Source of the DNA: Salinivibrio sp. ES.052
GTDB taxonomy: Bacteria; Pseudomonadota; Gammaproteobacteria; Enterobacterales; Vibrionaceae
Direction: 5' to 3'
Length of the DNA stretch: 64,000 bases
NCBI RefSeq assembly: GCF_900141775.1
Contig: NZ_FSRI01000002.1
Location: forward strand, 84,501 to 148,500
Below are positions 10,073 through 19,679 of this stretch, piece after piece. The notes beneath the pieces were generated by a model that was not told where the DNA came from, ran no database searches, and saw nothing but the letters and a program-made list of their open reading frames with translations. The translations under genes and the position numbers were made by a program. Within the stretch, counting starts at the first letter, position 1. The number at the start of each line of letters is the position of its first letter.

Positions 10073-11953
10073 CTACTCCAATGCAGAGAAGGTCGATATT
10101 GTGGCCGGCCCAGCAATACTGTAGGTCAGAGCCACTTCGTCACAGGCGTGAAAACGCGGACAGATTTCACAATCTTTCATCACTTTCTCTGGCAGTTGCG
10201 ATTTTGACACTGGGGTAAAGCCTAATTGGGTGAAAAATTCTGGCACTCGGGTGAGGACAAAGACTTGCTCAATCGCCATTTGCTTGGCTTTTTTAATCAA
10301 GTGCATCATCAACGCCGTGCCGTGTCCTTGGCGCTGCCAGCCCGCTTCTACGCCTAACGAGCGAATCTCTGCCAATCCTGAGTCGTAAATATACAGCGAG
10401 CCGCAGCCGGTCAAATCGCCTTGATGCTCTGAGACCGCAAATAGGCCAATATTGCGCACCAGTTCATGACGATCACGGGGTAAGTTCTCCCCCAATTTTG
10501 CCCAATACACCACCATGCCTTCGATGGTATCGAGGTCAGTGAGCCTTGCCGAGCGCACCGTGACTTTGGGGGTAAAGCGCTTATCTAAACGCTTTTGCGC
10601 CTCTTGAATGGCAAAGCTGACCTGTTCAGGTGCCACCCCACCCAGCGCCCGACGTTGGGCCAAGCAGGATTCAATCGTGAGCATCGCATACACATCGTCT
10701 TCAATCACCGGTGAGAATTGCTGCAAGGTGGCAAGCGGCAGCGCTTCTAATGCACAACCTTGCTCAATGGCGGATACCACCGCCACGCCCACAATATGGT
10801 GTGCTTCACGGAACGGGATCCCTTTACTCACCAAATAATCGGCCAGCTCGGTGGCATTGGCATGACCTTGCTGCGCCGCTTGCAAGGTTTTATCTTTATG
10901 GATGGTAATGCCTTCAAAGCACAGGGCAGCCATGTCCAAACAATCGTGCCAAGTGTCCATGGCATCGAAGAGTCCTTCTTTGTCTTCTTGCATGTCCTTG
11001 TTGTAGGCCAGCGGCAAGGCTTTCACTGTCATCATCATCGCCGACAAGGTGCCATACACACGGCCAGTTCTGCCGCGGATAAGCTCTAACGCATCGGGGT
11101 TTTTCTTTTGTGGCATCAACGAGGAGCCTGAGGTGACGGTATCCGCCAATTCAATAAAGCCCGATTCACCCGAGTTGTAGAAGATCATGTCTTCGGCCAT
11201 CCGTGAGAGATGCAACATCGACATGGATGCGGCGGACATCATCTCCATCACATGATCGCGGTCCGAGACCGAATCCAAACTATTACGGGTGGCCCGTTTA
11301 AATCCCAGATTTTGTGCCAAGGCATCGCGGTCAATTGGATACGCGGTGCCTGCCAGCGCCCCCGATCCGAGTGGGCAGGTATCCAAGCGACTGAGCGCAT
11401 CTTGCAAACGCGTGGTATCACGCTCAAACATCTCCAGATAGGCCAGACACCAATGGGCAAAGGTCACCGGTTGTGCACGCTGCAAGTGGGTGTAGCCAGG
11501 CAGCACGGTACCATGGTGCTGACCCGCCACATCCACCAGCTGCTGCTGAAGCTTGTCGAGAGACAGTAAGATTTGCTGGCCTTGCTGGCGACACCAGAGC
11601 TTGAGATCCGTGGCAACCTGATCGTTACGCGAGCGTCCGGTATGCAGCTTTTTGCCCAAATCCCCGACTTTCTCGATCAGTTGCTGCTCAACCCAGCTGT
11701 GAATGTCTTCGGCCTCTGAGCGTAAGATTTGCTTCGGGTTTTCCATCACCGACAGCTTGAGCTCATTAAGCGCGAGCTCCAATTGCTGTTGCTCGTCTTC
11801 ACTCAGCACGCCCACTGAACGCAAGGCTTTCGACCAAGCAATGGAGCCCACAATGTCTTGCTCTGCTAGGCGATAGTCAAAGCGCAGCGAATCATTAAAC
11901 GCTTGAAACCGTTTGTCTGCTGCTTGACTAAAGCGTCCGCCCCATAATGCCAT
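10073..11953 (-). CDS. argH: argininosuccinate lyase fused to an N-acetylglutamate synthase-like GNAT domain, ArgH(A)
   Basis: A 626-residue bifunctional protein. Residues 1 to about 455 are argininosuccinate lyase (MALWGGRF start, [12 protein letters not shown], signature [12 protein letters not shown]), which releases arginine and fumarate. Residues about 465-626 are a GNAT acetyltransferase ([19 protein letters not shown] is the acetyl-CoA loop) corresponding to the short ArgA domain that makes N-acetylglutamate, the first step of the pathway. This ArgH(A) fusion is known from Vibrionaceae and Moritella. The reading frame is continuous through the junction. The C-terminal domain holds a Cys cluster ([11 protein letters not shown]). 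It is the last gene of the arginine operon. Confidence 0.96.
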
Positions 11954-11988
11954 GCTGTCTCTCCTTACTGCTCACGATGCTTTTTTAA

Positions 11989-13200
11989 TTAGGATTGTTT
12001 TTGTTTGTTCAGTGTCCGAATCCGGCTCGACAGCGAATACAAACGGATAAAGCCTTCGGCGTGGCTGTGATCGTAGACATCATCATCCCCAAAGGTGGCA
12101 AAGTCTTCCGAGTACAAGCTATTGGTCGAGCGCTTTTGTACCACCGCCGCTTGCCCTTTATAGAGCTTGATTACCACCTCGCCCGTTACCGGCGCGGCGA
12201 GGGAATTGGCCGCGGCAACAATCGACTGACAAAGTGGCGTAAACCAACGCCCATCATAAATTAGGTGAGACGCTTTTAAACCGAGCTCCTCACGGAACTG
12301 ATAACTCTCTTTATCCAATACTAATTGTTCAACACCGCGCAGCGCTTCCATGATGATGGTGCCACCTGGGGTTTCATAGCAGCCGCGGGATTTCATCCCC
12401 ACCAAACGGTTCTCAACGATATCAATCCGTCCCACGCCATGTTCGGCACCTTTATCGTTCAGCAGCGTCAGCACGTCATAAGGCGACATGGATTCACCAT
12501 CGACCGAGACCACTTCCCCGCTTTGTACCCCTAAAGTGACAAATTCGGGCGTATTGGGCGCGTCTTCTGGTGCGACGGTCCATACCCAGCAGTCTTGGTT
12601 AGCCGCGGTCCAGGTATCTTCCAGCACTCCGCCTTCGGTCGAAACGTGCCAAGCATTGGCATCACGTGAATAGATTTTCTCAAGGCTCGCTGTACAAGGA
12701 ATATCACGGGCGGCCAAGTAGTCGAGTAAGGCTTCACGACTGGTGAGATCCCACTCACGCCAAGGTGCAATCACTTTAAGCTGCGGCGCCAGCGCGGAGA
12801 AGGTGCTCTCAAAACGAACTTGGTCGTTCCCCTTTCCGGTACAGCCGTGGCAAAGTGCATCCGCTCCAACTTCAAGGGCGCACTCGACCTGCGCTTTGGC
12901 AATGATCGGACGCGCCATCGAGGTGCCCAGAAGATACTTGCCTTCATACACCGCACCGGTTTTCAGGCTGGGGTAAATATAATCCGCCACCATTTCGTGT
13001 TTCAGATCGGCGATAAAACATTGCGATGCCCCGGAGGCGAGCGCTTTTTGCTCAATGCCTTCTAGCTCTTGTTCGCCTTGACCGACGTCGGCGACAAAGG
13101 CGACGACTTCACAGTCATAGTTTTCTTTTAGCCATGGAATGATGGCCGAGGTATCCAATCCACCCGAATAGGCCAGTACCACTTTGTTGATTTTGCTCAT
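11989..13200 (-). CDS. argG: argininosuccinate synthase
   Basis: A 403-residue ATP-dependent ligase that joins citrulline and aspartate. The N-terminal nucleotide loop [11 protein letters not shown] (residues 9-19) is diagnostic, with [13 protein letters not shown] and the long C-terminal tetramerisation arm. The ATG at 13200 is preceded by a strong ribosome site (AAGGAGAGCAAG); in-frame sequence further upstream belongs to the argB-argG spacer. Third gene of the operon, 35 bp before argH(A). No argF lies between argB and argG, so ornithine carbamoyltransferase must be encoded elsewhere. Confidence 0.97.
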
Positions 13201-13255
13201 CTTGCTCTCCTTAAATCCTGAAATGACGGTTTGCGTCGCGTCGTTATACGTTTTA

Positions 13256-14035
13256 TTAACTGGCGCTAAACCGGGTGCCGATTTGCTGGCCATCGAATAA
13301 TTGCGTGAGTTTTTCTGGGTAACGCCAGGTGGCAATCTCCACCGGTTTACCTAGCTCGCGGGCGGCGGCAAACGCCGCGTTAACCTTGACCACCATGCCA
13401 TCGGTGATCACGCCTTTTTCTATCAGGTGTTGCGCATCCAGCTCGGTCAGGCAAGGCAGTAAATGGCCTTTGCCATCTAACACACCACTGACATCCGACA
13501 GCAGCACTAGCTCCGCCCCGAGGGTGGTTGCCACCGCCACCGCCGCTTGGTCGGCATTAACGTTCATCAGTTCCCCTTGGTCACTGATACCAATCGAGCT
13601 AATAATCGGCACACAATCCGCGGCCAGTACCGCCTGCAGCAGGCTAGGATCACCGGCGCTGGCCTCGCCCACCGCCCCCAGATCAGGGTCCAGTTGGCTG
13701 ACCTGACACAAGCCACCATCGGCCAAGCTCAAGCCACAGCTTTTAATCTTCGCCTTACGCGCCTCAGCTAACAGTAGCTTATTGGCCGTCCCGGCTAAGG
13801 CACCGGTGACATAATCAATCTGGTCAGCCGGCGTGATCCGTAATCCTTGTTTTTTCACACTGGTGAGGGCGAGCTTTTTCAGCAGATCATCAACCAAGTA
13901 GCCGCCACCGTGCACCAGCACTAGCGGACGCTCAGCCTCACTGCGATAGGTGTTTATTGCGCCGAAAACCTTGGCGAGAGTCTCGCTGCAGCTCAGTGCC
14001 GCGCCGCCTAATTTAATCACTAATGGCGTTTTCAT
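13256..14035 (-). CDS. argB: acetylglutamate kinase
   Basis: A 259-residue amino-acid kinase that phosphorylates N-acetylglutamate with ATP, step two of the acetylated arginine pathway. The N-terminal VIKLGGAAL and LVLVHGGG motifs bind phosphates, and LLSDVSGVL is the conserved substrate/nucleotide segment. Length equals that of short E. coli-type ArgB (258), which lacks the N-terminal helix of the arginine-inhibited hexameric form. The ribosome site AGGAGAAACGG precedes the ATG. It starts 9 bp after the argC stop. Confidence 0.97.
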
Positions 14036-14044
14036 CCGTTTCTC

Positions 14045-15055
14045 CTAGACAATCGCTGTGGTTTCGGCAAAGCCAAACTTAAGGTTTAAACATTGCACGG
14101 CTTGGCTGGCCGCGCCTTTCAGTAAGTTATCAATCGCACTGGTAAGGATCAGATGCCCATGCGCGGCCTGATAGCCTATGTCGCAAAAGCCGGTGTATTG
14201 CACCGCTTGTAGCTTGGCCACCTCACCGGCAGGAAGTACCCGTACCAGCGGCGCATCTTGGTAAGTCTGGGTCAGTGCCTGCCCCACCTCCGCCTCACTA
14301 ACACCTGGCGCTAATTTGGCGGTAATGGTGGCAAGAATACCGCGTTTGTAACTGCCAAGGTGCGGGGTAAAAATCACTGGTGTATCAAGGTGCGCAGCAA
14401 TCTCTGGCTGATGACGGTGAGAAAACACCCCGTAAGCATGCAAGCTCACTTCGCAAAAACTGTTGGTCAGGCTCGCTTTGCGCCCCGCGCCCGTCACGCC
14501 GCTGGTGGCATTGATCACCGGCCACATTTGTTTATCCAACAAGCCTGCATCCAGCACAGGTTTGAGCGCTAATTGGCTGGCGGTCGGGTAACATCCCGGC
14601 ACGGCGACCAGCTGCGCTGCAGATAATGCTTCCTGTTGCCACTCCGCCAAGCCATACACGGCTTGCGCCAGCCATGCCGGTGACTGGTGCGAAAAGCCGT
14701 AATTGGTAGGATAAAAATCAGCTTGATTGACCCGATACGCCCCCGACAAATCAAACACCACGCAACCTTGAGCCAGAAAAGTCGGCGCCAAGTCATGACT
14801 AACCGCATGCGCAGTGGCTAAAAACACCACATCGGCTTGCTTGGCCACATCCTGTGGCGAGGTCAAAGGCATCAGTGGCATATCCACTACACCACGCAAT
14901 TGGCCGTGCAACGCGCTCACGGGGAGGTTGGCGTCTTCACTGCCTGCCGAGACATATAAACCGGCCAAGTGCAGTTGCGGATGGCGATGGACAAGGGCGA
15001 CAAGCTCGGCTCCTGTGTAGCCACTGGCACCGACAATAATGGTGTTACGTGTCAT
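14045..15055 (-). CDS. argC: N-acetyl-gamma-glutamyl-phosphate reductase
   Basis: A 336-residue NADPH-dependent dehydrogenase that makes N-acetylglutamate semialdehyde. The dinucleotide loop [11 protein letters not shown] is at residues 9-19 and the catalytic cysteine is in [13 protein letters not shown] near residue 155. It is the first structural gene of argC-argB-argG-argH(A). Transcription is predicted from a promoter near 15240, covered by two ARG boxes. A leader of about 175 nt containing a possible arginine-rich leader peptide precedes the start codon. The divergent neighbour is ppc rather than argE. Confidence 0.97.
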
Positions 15056-15138
15056 GGGTGTCTCTCTTTATGGGTGTTTACGGTGTGCTGCGGGGCAGCA
15101 GAGTATCGAGGGCGTAGCCAATAGCCACGCAAGGCAGG

Positions 15139-15189
15139 CTAGCGTCGTCGAGCAGAAAGGGCGTTGTGTTTGGTGGCGAGTGGCATCAT
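15139..15189 (-). CDS. candidate arginine leader peptide of the arg operon
   Basis: A 16-codon frame in the argC leader reads MMPLATKHNALSARRR and then TAG, so three arginine codons (CGA CGA CGC, 15142-15150) sit directly before the stop. GAGAG lies 7 bases upstream of the first ATG. The frame begins about 40 nt downstream of the predicted transcription start and ends 83 nt before argC. The position and the terminal Arg run suggest arginine-sensing translation or attenuation control, but no U-tailed terminator follows. It is not a gene I know, and it may be chance. Confidence 0.4.
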   Translation of the reverse strand: MMPLATKHNALSARRR

Positions 15190-15202
15190 GGGTCAACTCT
15201 CA

Positions 15203-15241
15203 AAAATATTTTTATTCATAAATAGTGAATGGTTATTTTTT
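15203..15241. promoter_or_regulatory. tandem ARG boxes (ArgR operator) over the argC promoter
   Basis: Two 18-bp ARG-box-like sites at 15203-15220 (right half ATTCATA perfect) and 15224-15241 (left half AGTGAAT perfect) are separated by 3 bp, the standard ArgR hexamer arrangement. On the minus strand TTGACG (15260-15265) and TAAAAA (15237-15242), spaced 17 bp, are the likely argC promoter. The boxes therefore cover the -10 and the start site. A weaker ARG-like half-site (ATTCATA) occurs at 15304-15310. Confidence 0.8.
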
Positions 15242-15503
15242 ATCGTATTCCCGTTTAGCCGTCAAGCCCTAAAAGCGTAAAAAGTCACTTTTAGTGTCTA
15301 TTCATTCATATTAGAGCAGAAATTCCATTTAACCATGCAAATAACATAGTCGTCATTAACCGCGACATCACGATATCGCAGGCGCAGAGACGCTCTCTGG
15401 AAGTTGGCAAGCATGAAAGCTGAAACTTTTTTTCATCTTTTGGGGTGGCTCTATGATAAGCATCAAATCCGATGGCCAGTTTTCGCGCTAACTTGCGGTA
15501 AAG

Positions 15504-15571
15504 TTGACCCGATCGCGCAATATTCGCTAGATTGGTTCTTTACAGTCACAGTAGGATGTAACTTTGTTACA
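15504..15571 (+). promoter_or_regulatory. ppc promoter and TGTAAC-N3-GTTACA palindrome
   Basis: TTGACC (15504-15509) and TAGATT (15528-15533), spaced 18 bp, form a plausible sigma-70 promoter. A perfect 15-bp palindrome, TGTAACTTTGTTACA (15557-15571), lies downstream of the predicted start and 13 bp ahead of the ppc ATG. It resembles the HexR operator consensus (TGTAAT-N3-ATTACA). The rest of the 529-bp argC-ppc spacer holds the arg control region and no other gene I can support. Confidence 0.55.
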
Positions 15572-15584
15572 GAATGGATACGCT

Positions 15585-18218
15585 ATGAACGAAAAGTACT
15601 CTGCCTTAAAAAGCAATGTCAGTATGCTTGGCCGTCTGCTGGGTAACACCATCCAAGATGCCCATGGTCCAGCACTCTTAGAAAAAGTTGAGGAAATTCG
15701 TCAGCTCTCAAAATCGGCTGCCGATGGCAATCAGGACGATCATGCTAAGCTGAAAACCGTGCTGCAAAACTTGCCGGCTGACCAACTGCTTCCGGTCGCC
15801 CGCGCCTTTAGCCAATTTTTGAATCTGACTAATATCGCCGAGCAATATCACACCGTCTCGCGTCAATGCGACGCGTTGGAGTGCAGCCCGGACGCTATTG
15901 ACGATTTACTCCGCCGTGTCAGCCAAGGTGAAATAAATGCCAATGACGCGCAAAAAGCGATCGCCGATTTAAAAATTGAGTTAGTCCTGACCGCCCACCC
16001 GACCGAAATCGCGCGCCGTACCACCATTCATAACTTGGTGCAGATTAATAAATGCTTATCGAAATTAGAGCTCAGTGAACATTTGGGTGCCGGTGAGCGC
16101 GCCAAAACCGAGAAACGTCTCGAGCAGTTGATCGCCCAAGCGTGGCACACCGATGTGATCCGCCAAGAGCGACCAACCCCGCTTGATGAAGCCAAGTGGG
16201 GCTTTGCGGTGATTGAAAATTCACTGTGGCAAGCAGTGCCCGCATTTTTACGTCAATTTGATCAGCAGCTTGAGAATCACCTCGACATCAACTTGCCTAT
16301 TGATGCCAAGCCGGTACAGATCTCCTCGTGGATGGGTGGCGATCGCGACGGTAACCCGTATGTCACCAGCGAGGTTACCCGTGAAGTCATGCTGTTATCA
16401 CGCTGGAAAGCCGCAGATTTGTACTTGCGTGATGTGCAAGATTTGATCAGTGAACTGTCAATGACACAGTGTGATGACACAGTGCGTGAAATGGCCGGCG
16501 AGGCGCACGAGCCGTATCGCGCCATCCTCAAAACCATGCGCAGCCAGCTAACTCACACCTTAAGCTATTTGGACGCCAAACTGAAAGGCGAACGCGCCTC
16601 ATCACAAGGGATCCTGACCGACACCCAGCAATTGTGGCAACCATTACTGGCGTGTTACCAGTCTCTCCATCAATGTGGCATGGGCATTATTGCCGACGGC
16701 AAGTTGCTTGACTTGCTCCGCTGCGTGCAATGCTTTGGCGTGCATCTGATCAAGCTCGATATTCGCCAAGAAAGTACCCGTCATGCCGATGTGCTCTCAG
16801 AAGTGACCCGTTATTTGGGGATGGGCGACTACGCCCAATGGAGCGAGCAAGACAAGCAAGCCTTCTTAACCCGCGAGCTGGCCTCTAAGCGTCCGCTACT
16901 GCCACGTGATTGGTCACCGTCGCCTGAGGTACAAGAAGTGATCGATACCTGCAAGGTGATCGCCGAACAGCCGCGCGAAGCCTTGGGCGCCTATGTGATT
17001 TCGATGGCTCGCACCGCCTCCGACGTGTTGGCCGTGCATTTATTGCTAAAAGAAGCTGGCTGTCCATTCCGTATGGACGTGTGCCCGTTATTCGAAACCT
17101 TGGACGATCTGAACAATGCCGAGGCAGTGATTGGTGAGCTACTGGCCATTGATTGGTACCGTGGCTTTACCCAGAACGTTCAAATGGTGATGATCGGTTA
17201 CTCGGACTCAGCCAAAGATGCTGGAGTGATGGCCGCGGGTTGGGCGCAATACCGCGCCATGGAAGCCTTGGTCAATTTGTGTGATGAACAAGGGGTTAAT
17301 CTCACCCTTTTCCATGGCCGCGGCGGGACAGTTGGCCGCGGCGGCGCCCCTGCACATGCGGCCCTGCTCTCACAACCTCCTCGCAGTTTGAAAGGTGGCC
17401 TACGCGTGACCGAGCAAGGGGAGATGATCCGCTTTAAATTGGGGCTGCCTGGTGTCGCAGTCAACAGCTTAAACCTGTATACCAGCGCCATTTTAGAAGC
17501 GAACTTGCTGCCACCACCTGAGCCTAAGCAGGAGTGGCGACAGCTGATGGACACCTTGAGTGATATCTCTTGCCAGGCCTACCGTGATGTGGTGCGTGGC
17601 CATGAGCAATTTGTGCCTTACTTCCGCTCCACCACCCCTGAGCTTGAATTAGGCAAACTACCGCTGGGATCGCGCCCTTCTAAGCGTAACCCGAACGGCG
17701 GTGTCGAAAGCTTGCGCGCGATTCCTTGGATTTTCGCGTGGAGTCAAAACCGCTTATTGCTGCCGGCTTGGTTGGGGGCTGGACAAGCGATTGACCACGC
17801 TATTTCAAAAGGCCACAAAGCACAGCTGGAAGAAATGTGTCGTGAGTGGCCGTTTTTCTCAACCCGCCTCGGCATGCTAGAAATGGTGTTTACCAAAACC
17901 AACCTAGACATTGCCAAGTACTATGATCAGCGTTTGGTCGACGAAAGCCTCTGGCCGTTGGGTGAATCCTTGCGAGATCAGTTGCGCCAAGATATTCAGG
18001 TGGTGTTAGCGGTAGAAAACAGCGATAACCTGATGGAGCAAAACCCGTGGGGTGCCGAAGCCATCCGCTTGCGTAACATTTATGTTGAGCCGTTAAACAT
18101 GCTGCAAGCAGAGCTATTACACCGTACACGGCAATCGGAACAAGGGGATCAATCGCTCGACGATGCCTTGATGATTTCCATCGCGGGGATTGCCGCGGGG
18201 CTGCGCAATACCGGTTAG
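15585..18218 (+). CDS. ppc: phosphoenolpyruvate carboxylase
   Basis: An 877-residue anaplerotic enzyme that fixes bicarbonate onto PEP to give oxaloacetate. The catalytic histidine lies in [12 protein letters not shown], the glycine-rich loop is [14 protein letters not shown], and the protein ends with the family's C-terminal NTG, whose backbone carboxylate takes part in allosteric inhibition by aspartate. The start [16 protein letters not shown] matches the E. coli N terminus; an upstream in-frame codon at 15564 adds seven residues unlike the family. It is monocistronic, followed by a terminator. Confidence 0.98.
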
Positions 18219-18231
18219 TCCTTGATAGTCG

Positions 18232-18258
18232 AGCCGTACCCTTGGGTGCGGCTTTTTT
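18232..18258 (+). terminator. ppc terminator
   Basis: Stem AGCCGTACCC / GGGTGCGGCT (one imperfect pair) followed by six T, 14 bp after the ppc stop. Confidence 0.85.
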
Positions 18259-18401
18259 GTCTTGGCACATGAACGACGCTGAGGAAATCCTGACCACAGA
18301 CTTTTTTATGCAAAGCCGCAGCTAATGCTTGCTGTTGCATTGATAATATTATTACTATTGAAGGTCGCACTGACGCGACCCTACAACGCAAAGGAATTGC
18401 C

Positions 18402-19679
18402 ATGAAAGACGAAACCCTCTCGATTCATCACGGCTACCAGACCGACCCCACCACCAAATCGGTGGCAACGCCTATCTATCAAACCGTCGCTTACGAGTTT
18501 GATAATGCCCAACACGGCGCTGATCTGTTCAATCTCGATGTGCCAGGCAATATCTACTCACGGATCATGAACCCGACCAACGACGTGTTGGAACAACGGG
18601 TGGCGGCATTAGAGGGGGGTATTGCGGGACTGTGTGTCAGTGCCGGGGCGGCCGCCATCACCTATGCGATTCAAACCCTCGCCAAAGCCGGTGATAACAT
18701 CGTCGCGACCCCACAGCTTTACGGCGGTACTTACACCTTGTTTGCCCACATGCTCCCCGAGCAAGGCATTGAGGTCCGTTTTGCTACGAGTGACGACGCC
18801 AGTGCGATTGAAGCGCTGATTGATGACAACACCAAAGCGGTGTATTGCGAGTCGATTGGCAACCCCGCTGGCAATATCGCGGATATACCCGGTTTTGCCA
18901 ACGTCGCACACGCGCATGGGGTGCCTTTGGTGGTCGACAATACCGTGGCCACACCCGTTTTGTGCAAACCCATTGAGCATGGTGCCGATATCGTGGTGCA
19001 CTCACTCACCAAATACATTGGCGGCCATGGCACCACCCTCGGCGGCATGATTGTCGATGGTGGCACCTTTGATTGGCTGGCGCATCAAGCGCGCTTCCCG
19101 CAATTCTCGCAGCCCGAACCGGCCTATCACGGCGTGGTCTACAGTGACACCTTCGGTCCGGCGGCGTTTATTGCGCGTGCTCGCACGGTGCCACTGCGTA
19201 ACAGCGGCGCGGCACTCTCACCGATGAACGCGTTTATGTTGATGCAAGGATTAGAAACCTTGAGCCTGCGTATGGAGCGTCATTGTGAGAATGCCCAAGC
19301 GGTGGCGAACTATCTTGCCCGTCACCCTGCCGTCGCGTGGGTGAACTATGCCGGTCTTGAAAATCACTCGCATCATGCGCGCGCCCAATCCCTCATTCGC
19401 GGTGGACTGCCCGCGTCACTGCTGTCATTCGGCTTAAAAGGCGGCTTTGATGAAGGGGTGATGTTTTATGATGCGCTGAATCTGTTTAAACGATTGGTGA
19501 ATATCGGGGATGCTAAGTCATTGGCATGTCATCCCGCCTCGACCACCCATCGCCAATTGAACGAACAAGAGCAAGCGAAAGCCGGGGTGACGCCAGAGAT
19601 GATCCGTCTTTGTGTCGGCATTGAGCATCTCGATGACATCATTGCCGACTTAGAACAGGCATTGGCGGCGGTGAAATAG
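18402..19679 (+). CDS. metY: O-acetylhomoserine sulfhydrylase (MetY-type PLP enzyme)
   Basis: A 425-residue Cys/Met-metabolism PLP enzyme with the longer MetY layout (MetB/MetC are about 390). The PLP lysine is in HSLTKYIGGHG, the N-terminal SRIMNPTNDVLEQR contacts the cofactor phosphate, and the inserted LAHQARFPQFSQPEPAYHG segment is typical of O-acetylhomoserine aminocarboxypropyltransferases. It would make homocysteine directly from sulfide. metB for the transsulfuration route is also present at 24 kb, so two sulfur-assimilation options coexist. No MetJ box is visible upstream. Strong AAAGGAATTGCC ribosome site. Confidence 0.92.
   Translation: MKDETLSIHHGYQTDPTTKSVATPIYQTVAYEFDNAQHGADLFNLDVPGNIYSRIMNPTNDVLEQRVAALEGGIAGLCVSAGAAAITYAIQTLAKAGDNIVATPQLYGGTYTLFAHMLPEQGIEVRFATSDDASAIEALIDDNTKAVYCESIGNPAGNIADIPGFANVAHAHGVPLVVDNTVATPVLCKPIEHGADIVVHSLTKYIGGHGTTLGGMIVDGGTFDWLAHQARFPQFSQPEPAYHGVVYSDTFGPAAFIARARTVPLRNSGAALSPMNAFMLMQGLETLSLRMERHCENAQAVANYLARHPAVAWVNYAGLENHSHHARAQSLIRGGLPASLLSFGLKGGFDEGVMFYDALNLFKRLVNIGDAKSLACHPASTTHRQLNEQEQAKAGVTPEMIRLCVGIEHLDDIIADLEQALAAVK

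Follow-up and report, generated by a model that had tools for sequence, protein, structure and literature searches.

Ribosome-mediated attenuators are known for the his, trp, leu, thr, phe and ilv operons, and a comparative survey of proteobacterial attenuators from 2004 reportedly dealt with branched-chain, histidine, threonine, tryptophan and phenylalanine operons, not with arginine. Arginine biosynthesis in gammaproteobacteria is usually taught as a case of repressor control by ArgR. According to the available portions of the respective articles, the speF leader frame orf34 (SpeFL) of Salmonella contains two consecutive Arg codons and functions together with Rho and RNase G (PMC6386406), the leader peptide rbfL of Staphylococcus aureus senses arginine via rare Arg codons and lowers rbf (PMC13009471), and the uORFC-8-2 motif upstream of cysS, for which ribosome-mediated attenuation has been proposed, has tandem cognate codons in a stem and a terminator-like U run (PMC8632094).

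The leader of argC in Salinivibrio sp. ES.052 can be compared with all of these. It lies in a stretch of 64,000 nucleotides (contig NZ_FSRI01000002.1, positions 84,501 to 148,500), which as a whole is called the window here. Like in the classical attenuators of the his, trp, leu, thr, phe and ilv operons, a short leader peptide with a run of product codons precedes the first structural gene, here downstream of a promoter recognised by eye only, and relatives also have alternative RNA folds (genus g8) and terminator-like hairpins (family f17 and some leaders of family f7). Unlike in the classical attenuators, the amino acid is arginine and the control would be added to ArgR repression, the regulatory codons of f17 are themselves the 5' arm of the hairpin, and no U-tailed terminator was found in Salinivibrio. 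Consecutive Arg codons in an upstream frame are shared with speF orf34, where arginine acts through ribosome pausing and Rho is involved, but as far as the accessible text goes, orf34 controls ornithine decarboxylase and not arginine synthesis, and it has 34 codons, a conserved internal core (DUF2618), its Arg codons at positions 12 and 13, and a leader of about 516 nt (PMC6386406); the core HIRRTxHIMM given there is absent, by reading, from the argC leader frames that were printed. The uORFC-8-2 motif resembles argC leaders in the cognate-codon tandem inside a stem and the U run, and differs in that it concerns cysteine, a tRNA synthetase gene and Rhodobacterales (PMC8632094, same portion). 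Arginine sensing by Arg codons in a leader peptide is common to rbfL and the argC leader, but the stalled ribosome of rbfL is described as blocking a downstream ribosome site and thereby lowering expression of a biofilm regulator (PMC13009471, same portion). Among the literature matches listed (titles and abstract openings), no earlier report of an argC leader peptide was found, and argC does not occur in the main text of a survey of Shewanella cis-RNAs (PMC2659441), which is the part of that article covered; the novelty is provisional. With a probability of about three in four, argC is subject to ribosome-mediated attenuation that would sense charged tRNA-Arg in addition to the control by ArgR, as judged from comparison of the leaders.

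In the window, argC (14045..15055, minus strand; open reading frame named by NCBIfam TIGR01850) is the first gene of a cluster with the order argC-argB-argG-argHA, which reaches down to 10073 (open reading frames, names by NCBIfam) and from its layout is probably a single operon. A phosphoenolpyruvate carboxylase gene, also named by NCBIfam, is divergent from argC. The final gene of the cluster (10073-11953, minus strand) is a fusion of argH with an acetyltransferase domain (NCBIfam PRK12308), and residues 464-613 of argHA match an N-acetyltransferase model. A putative argC promoter, TTGACG-N17-TAAAAA, can be recognised by eye at 15237..15265 (minus strand), with a start site expected near 15230, and two ARG-box-like 18-mers, 3 bp apart, were found by eye on the same strand at 15224..15241 and 15203..15220 by comparison with the ARG-box consensus wnTGAATwwwwATTCAnw. 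From these by-eye assignments the leader should be about 175 nt long, and the first-pass annotation of this DNA, which had described an ARG-box-covered promoter and a leader of that length, agrees with them; a scan with consensus patterns listed neither a minus-strand promoter nor a terminator at the argC leader. The layout TTGAC-N17-TAAAAA is seen, by eye, in leaders of genus g3 too. A protein of the ArgR family (PF01316) is encoded in the genome of the window, and ArgR is present in seven of the seven genomes tested. Around the leader, a 339-nt segment of five named Salinivibrio records has exact counterparts in genomes of the same genus.

The leader frame itself, MMPLATKHNALSARRR followed by TAG, has 16 codons, lies at 15139..15189 on the minus strand just as first described, and is conserved in relatives; GAGAG at 15197..15201 (minus strand), 7 nt upstream of its ATG, is its likely ribosome-binding site. 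Directly before the stop are the codons CGA CGA CGC (15142..15150, minus strand), the candidate regulatory codons, which are invariant in all eight Salinivibrio. For a lone sequence chance is a fair rival explanation and the single-genome statistic is weak, as 10 of the 871 short ATG frames in the window have at least three Arg among their last five codons, the MMPLATKHNALSARRR frame included. In the eight Salinivibrio, the frame and its Arg run are kept while the residues before the run change (MTPLAAKHNALALRRR, MILGTAKHNTLALRRR), and CGACGACGCTAG is invariant. The first-pass annotation had treated chance as a real alternative and had made its reading depend on relatives having an Arg-rich frame at this place. 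The former holds for the single sequence, but not once relatives are compared, where 64 of 67 leaders of Vibrionaceae outside genera g10 and g12 have the frame; as to the latter, short ATG frames with terminal Arg codons are kept in many relatives, and the close relatives in g10 and g12 are without them. A chance frame was rejected on the grounds of this conservation together with the phase of the ATGs before the run.

The census behind these counts covered the 250 nt upstream of argC in 304 distinct leaders (13 identical refetched ones removed). Of a set of 121 genomes, 116 were entered, two having been excluded because they had no argC match, two because they had weak hits only, and one because its argC was fragmented; a Kurthia locus and loci of family f3 found in a separate search were left out of the counts. 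The criterion was a frame that starts with ATG, is 5-45 codons long and has Arg-Arg within the last five codons. Such a frame is present in 146 of the 304 leaders, as compared to 209 of 6080 sequences sampled from these leaders by a first-order Markov model (3.4%), where it has to be considered that the leaders share descent and that the counts are not numbers of independent events. Within the Vibrionaceae, it was found in all Salinivibrio (g1, 8/8), in g3 (14/16), g7 (2/2) and g8 (36/36), and in the single leaders of g4, g5, g9 and g11, while it is nearly missing in g10 (0/14) and g12 (1/35; together 1/49) and was not found in the one leader of g2. We take g8 to be probably Photobacterium, and g3, g10 and g12 presumably are Enterovibrio, Aliivibrio and Vibrio. 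Outside the Vibrionaceae, the frame occurs in families f2 (10/11, nine of them MNRFS[WS]FRRDSI and one, L149, via a different frame), f6 (22/26), f17 (8/9) and f13 (3/4), in only 23 of 58 leaders of f7, in f25 (4/10), f11 (1/2) and f15 (1/2; group null 0.15), in 7 of 23 named Colwellia records, and in 2 of 8 named records of the Erwinia/Pantoea type (group null 0.106). No frame was found by this rule in f3 (8 leaders), f5 (1), f9 (3), f10 (5), f12 (4), f16 (4), f19 (4), f21 (3), f23, f26 and f27 (1 each). The shortest f7 candidate among the matches listed is MLLFRRR (L168), with 7 codons, whose stop lies 108 nt upstream of the first argC codon that was matched. In g10 and g12, a divergent argE lies at short spacing upstream of argC (medians 213 and 160 nt). 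Linkage to argE was discarded as a predictor of the absence of the frame, since in f2, f6, f13, g4, g9 and g11 argE is 231-312 nt away and the frame is mostly present; argE proximity is at most a spacing effect.

That the frame is coding is suggested by the phase of its start codons. When every ATG in the 60 nt upstream of the Arg run was counted in any frame, those in phase with the run were 14 of 14 in g1, 29 of 32 in g3, 53 of 62 in g8, 29 of 30 in f6 and 12 of 20 in f17. The ATG of g8, located by context alone, is 33, 36 or 39 nt upstream of the run in 33 of 36 leaders, the other three having no context match. A further argument from frame length, according to which gaps in the aligned frames are multiples of three, was dropped because it is partly built in, the ATGs having been picked in frame, and because some of the gaps are end gaps; the count of ATGs in any frame is free of this bias and takes its place. 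Within the run the codon choice is biased. All 64 Vibrionaceae frames counted have CGA as the first codon of the run, and CGA makes up 334 of 430 codons of the Arg runs as compared to 8 of 173 Arg codons (4.6%) in eight long open reading frames of the window. CGA is decoded slowly in E. coli. As CGA is thus retained more strictly than Arg codons generally, and as CGACGAC pairs with downstream sequence in f17, in g3/g7 and, by reading, in some f6 leaders, the motif might be an RNA or DNA element, for structure or as a protein site, with an only incidental frame. This is highly improbable, the least probable of the explanations weighed here, since in g1 and g8 no strong partner of the motif was found and it is nonetheless in phase with an upstream ATG and adjoins the stop, and since the Arg run varies by whole codons, from two to five.

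A sensor that reads codons has to be distinguished from an arrest peptide, whose nascent chain would bind free arginine or a related metabolite such as ornithine and stall the ribosome. SpeFL reportedly acts as such a metabolite-binding arrest peptide. The Arg residues of the argC leaders hold a fixed C-terminal place, and Arg-Arg likewise occurs in the SpeFL-type leader (PMC6386406, available part), which both would suit an arrest peptide, but the residues before the run vary among clades and the lengths range from 7 to more than 20 codons. The entropy is alike at all three codon positions of the frame, which indicates no conservation of the peptide ahead of the run, and MNQA in g8 is accounted for by the RNA helix P1 described below. 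A codon sensor would explain this lack of conservation more readily than an arrest peptide would; the latter we consider quite improbable, if slightly less so than the bare motif.

In several clades the codons of the leader frame are part of RNA structures. In f17, eight of nine leaders have a U-tailed hairpin whose 5' arm consists of the Arg codons and the stop, with -6.8 to -20.7 kcal/mol (as the best of many ends, without a control), and two stricter terminator scans recovered five of nine (null 0.03) and six of nine (0/27). In two f17 leaders that were folded, a ribosome occupying the Arg codons made the hairpin impossible, and so did one at the stop codon, for which reason termination would require that the ribosome is released. 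Arg codons within a U-tailed hairpin are what a stall sensor would need, and this arrangement, together with the conservation of the frame, supports the arginine leader peptide that had initially been proposed from a single sequence. In f7, one leader (L316) resembles f17, with GCGACGACGAA/TTAGTCGTCGC followed by U8. Very strong terminators were found in 18 of 58 f7 leaders (null 10/174), nine of these 18 being without an Arg frame by the census rule, and folding indicated that the terminator is insensitive to the position of the ribosome in six of seven leaders. Very strong U-tailed terminators of L307, L310, L317, L323 and L329 end 35-75 nt before argC, and the frames of several of them carry a CTGCCTTGCTATGC-like sequence that pairs 3' of the stop; in L311, L312, L320 and L326 the terminator is kept and Arg codons are absent. 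In g3/g7 a hairpin takes in Arg codons 4-5, with 94.6% of the cells paired and little covariation.

A different arrangement is found in g8, g4 and g9, for which 34 leaders, 30 of them distinct, were compared. A helix termed P1 joins codons 2-5 (ACCARGCGA) to a segment that lies about 7 nt 3' of the leader stop. In P1, 93.0% of the cells are paired as compared to 86.9% in shuffles (0/500 as high), 18 cells have changed on both sides as compared to 4.5 (0/500 as high), and four pairs have two-sided changes as compared to 2.2 (reached by 23/500), while further pair types are not above shuffles (466/500). Pairing falls to 21-41% when the partner is slid along. Nine pairs are kept in 26 rows and eight in four, and L132, L143, L144 and L145 keep 4-6 of 9. 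Within the 3' arm of P1 begins a hairpin B of these genera (GGTGC..GCACC), which a search limited to this position found in all 34 leaders; when the bases 3' of this point were shuffled, its median score was reached by 3.5% and its lowest score by 9.6%. Its tail is U-rich in a minority of these leaders, and a scan for terminator-like hairpins gave 15 of 32 g8 leaders (null 0.11), or 5 of 36 (null 3/108) when the rule was tightened. Four g8 leaders were folded, the size of the ribosome footprint being assumed. A ribosome placed at the first or at the third Arg codon gave P1 a probability of 0.85-0.97 in three of them; in G023 the two values were 0.92 and then 0.18, and the third codon favoured B. 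On the stop codon, the ribosome left B at 0.97-1.00 in all four. As P1 is favoured also without any ribosome (0.88-0.97 in three leaders, 0.49 in G023), the switch would need a ribosome that is still at the stop while B forms. In g8, pairing and constrained folding support that P1 excludes hairpin B and that the choice may depend on the position of the ribosome. Given the ribosome-free preference for P1 in g8 and the blocked stop in f17, both schemes would hinge on when the ribosome pauses and when it is released.

In Salinivibrio no such terminator is seen, and none of the eight leaders, that of the window included, has a U-tailed one, in accordance with the first-pass annotation and with the consensus scan. 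Two other hairpins are conserved in the eight leaders, both on the minus strand. Hairpin B (GCGTGGC / GCTACGC, 7 pairs, loop of 5; 15112..15130) has 98.2% of its cells paired and one pair with a two-sided change, in one species; hairpin C (TGCTGC / GCAGCA; 15086..15100), which had been noticed from the start, has 95.8% paired and one pair changed on both sides, again in one species. Jointly, 97.1% of the cells are paired and two changed on both sides, which shuffles match in 5/500. TAGCC and two copies of GGCTA, for which a pairing had been proposed as well, are present, but the hairpin GCGTGGC / GCTACGC is better supported, and as a switch the TAGCC/GGCTA pairing was rejected with a folding probability of 0.00-0.01. 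Folding of the window's leader with different ribosome positions gave no clean switch (B 0.00-0.37), and a P1-like helix from folding (GCCACCAA with UUGCGUGGC) is, by reading, not kept across the Salinivibrio alignment. Rfam 15 gave two weak matches at E up to 5 for positions 11500-18500 of the window, both outside the leader, and no gathering-level match in 13 loci, which include that of the window.

Stalling at the Arg codons might have another output, altering decay or translation of the argC mRNA and not its transcription, like in the Salmonella speF leader, where pausing at two Arg codons governs decay by RNase G (PMC6386406, in the part available). No intrinsic terminator was found in Salinivibrio, and the conserved hairpins B and C are located between frame and argC, as would suit this output, but both hairpins end at least 30 nt upstream of the argC ATG and leave its ribosome site uncovered, and the terminator-like hairpins of f17 contain the Arg codons. 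An output by decay or translation is thus unlikely, although more plausible than an arrest peptide. For attenuation of transcription, the output most likely in Salinivibrio would be Rho acting on the stretch between the leader stop and argC (15056..15138, minus strand), which is C-rich and G-poor (32 C, 17 G) and may be a Rho-loading region; it ranks at the 98.7th percentile among 95-nt windows of both strands of the window, being itself 83 nt long. Its composition is compatible with Rho loading and does not prove Rho, and with no intrinsic terminator found, this output is the least certain step of the mechanism.

A conserved frame with terminal CGA codons precedes the operon in a genome that encodes ArgR, and paired structures are tied to it in several clades. 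Accordingly composed leaders would place two arginine controls on the argC operon, ArgR at the promoter and then the arginine leader peptide downstream of it. A ribosome would translate the short frame and, when charged tRNA-Arg is scarce, stall on the terminal, mostly CGA, Arg codons, whereby its position would prevent the transcription-stopping RNA fold, so that transcription reads through into argC and the arg genes are made. With plentiful Arg-tRNA it would reach the stop and leave, the stopping form would fold, and transcription would end early. In f17 the stopping form would be an intrinsic terminator with the Arg codons as its 5' arm, in g8 the stalled ribosome would allow P1 and so exclude hairpin B, and in Salinivibrio the sensor would be retained with an output perhaps via Rho. 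Whether this amounts to a widespread second-layer arginine attenuator in many families of the order Enterobacterales, mostly of marine type, with a near-fixed CGA-CGA sensor, with outputs swapped repeatedly (terminator in f17, helix switch in g8, Rho in Salinivibrio), and with loss in Vibrio-like and Aliivibrio-like lineages, is evenly balanced in our estimation. A conserved Arg leader peptide would add arginine to the amino acids whose operons are controlled by attenuators, and sensing of charged tRNA would be stacked with sensing of free arginine on one promoter. The leaders would then be a natural series of one sensor with several output stages, in which it can be tested why attenuators choose a slow codon like CGA.

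Further Arg leaders were sought at other genes. Before argF, no convincing Arg frame was found at 15 OTCase-family loci of six genomes; one frame, MNSLRKRLRS, is present at such a locus (L291) of G047. In six of seven genomes, exact CGACGACGNTAR sites were no more numerous than in the backward-pattern control (G000 had 7 as compared to 5), so that no second leader was found by the search for exact sites. In G000, C4:707717-707890 (minus strand) encodes a second, weaker ArgR-family protein, perhaps the regulator of a catabolic cluster, and the OTCase-family gene at 708691 is some 0.8 kb away.
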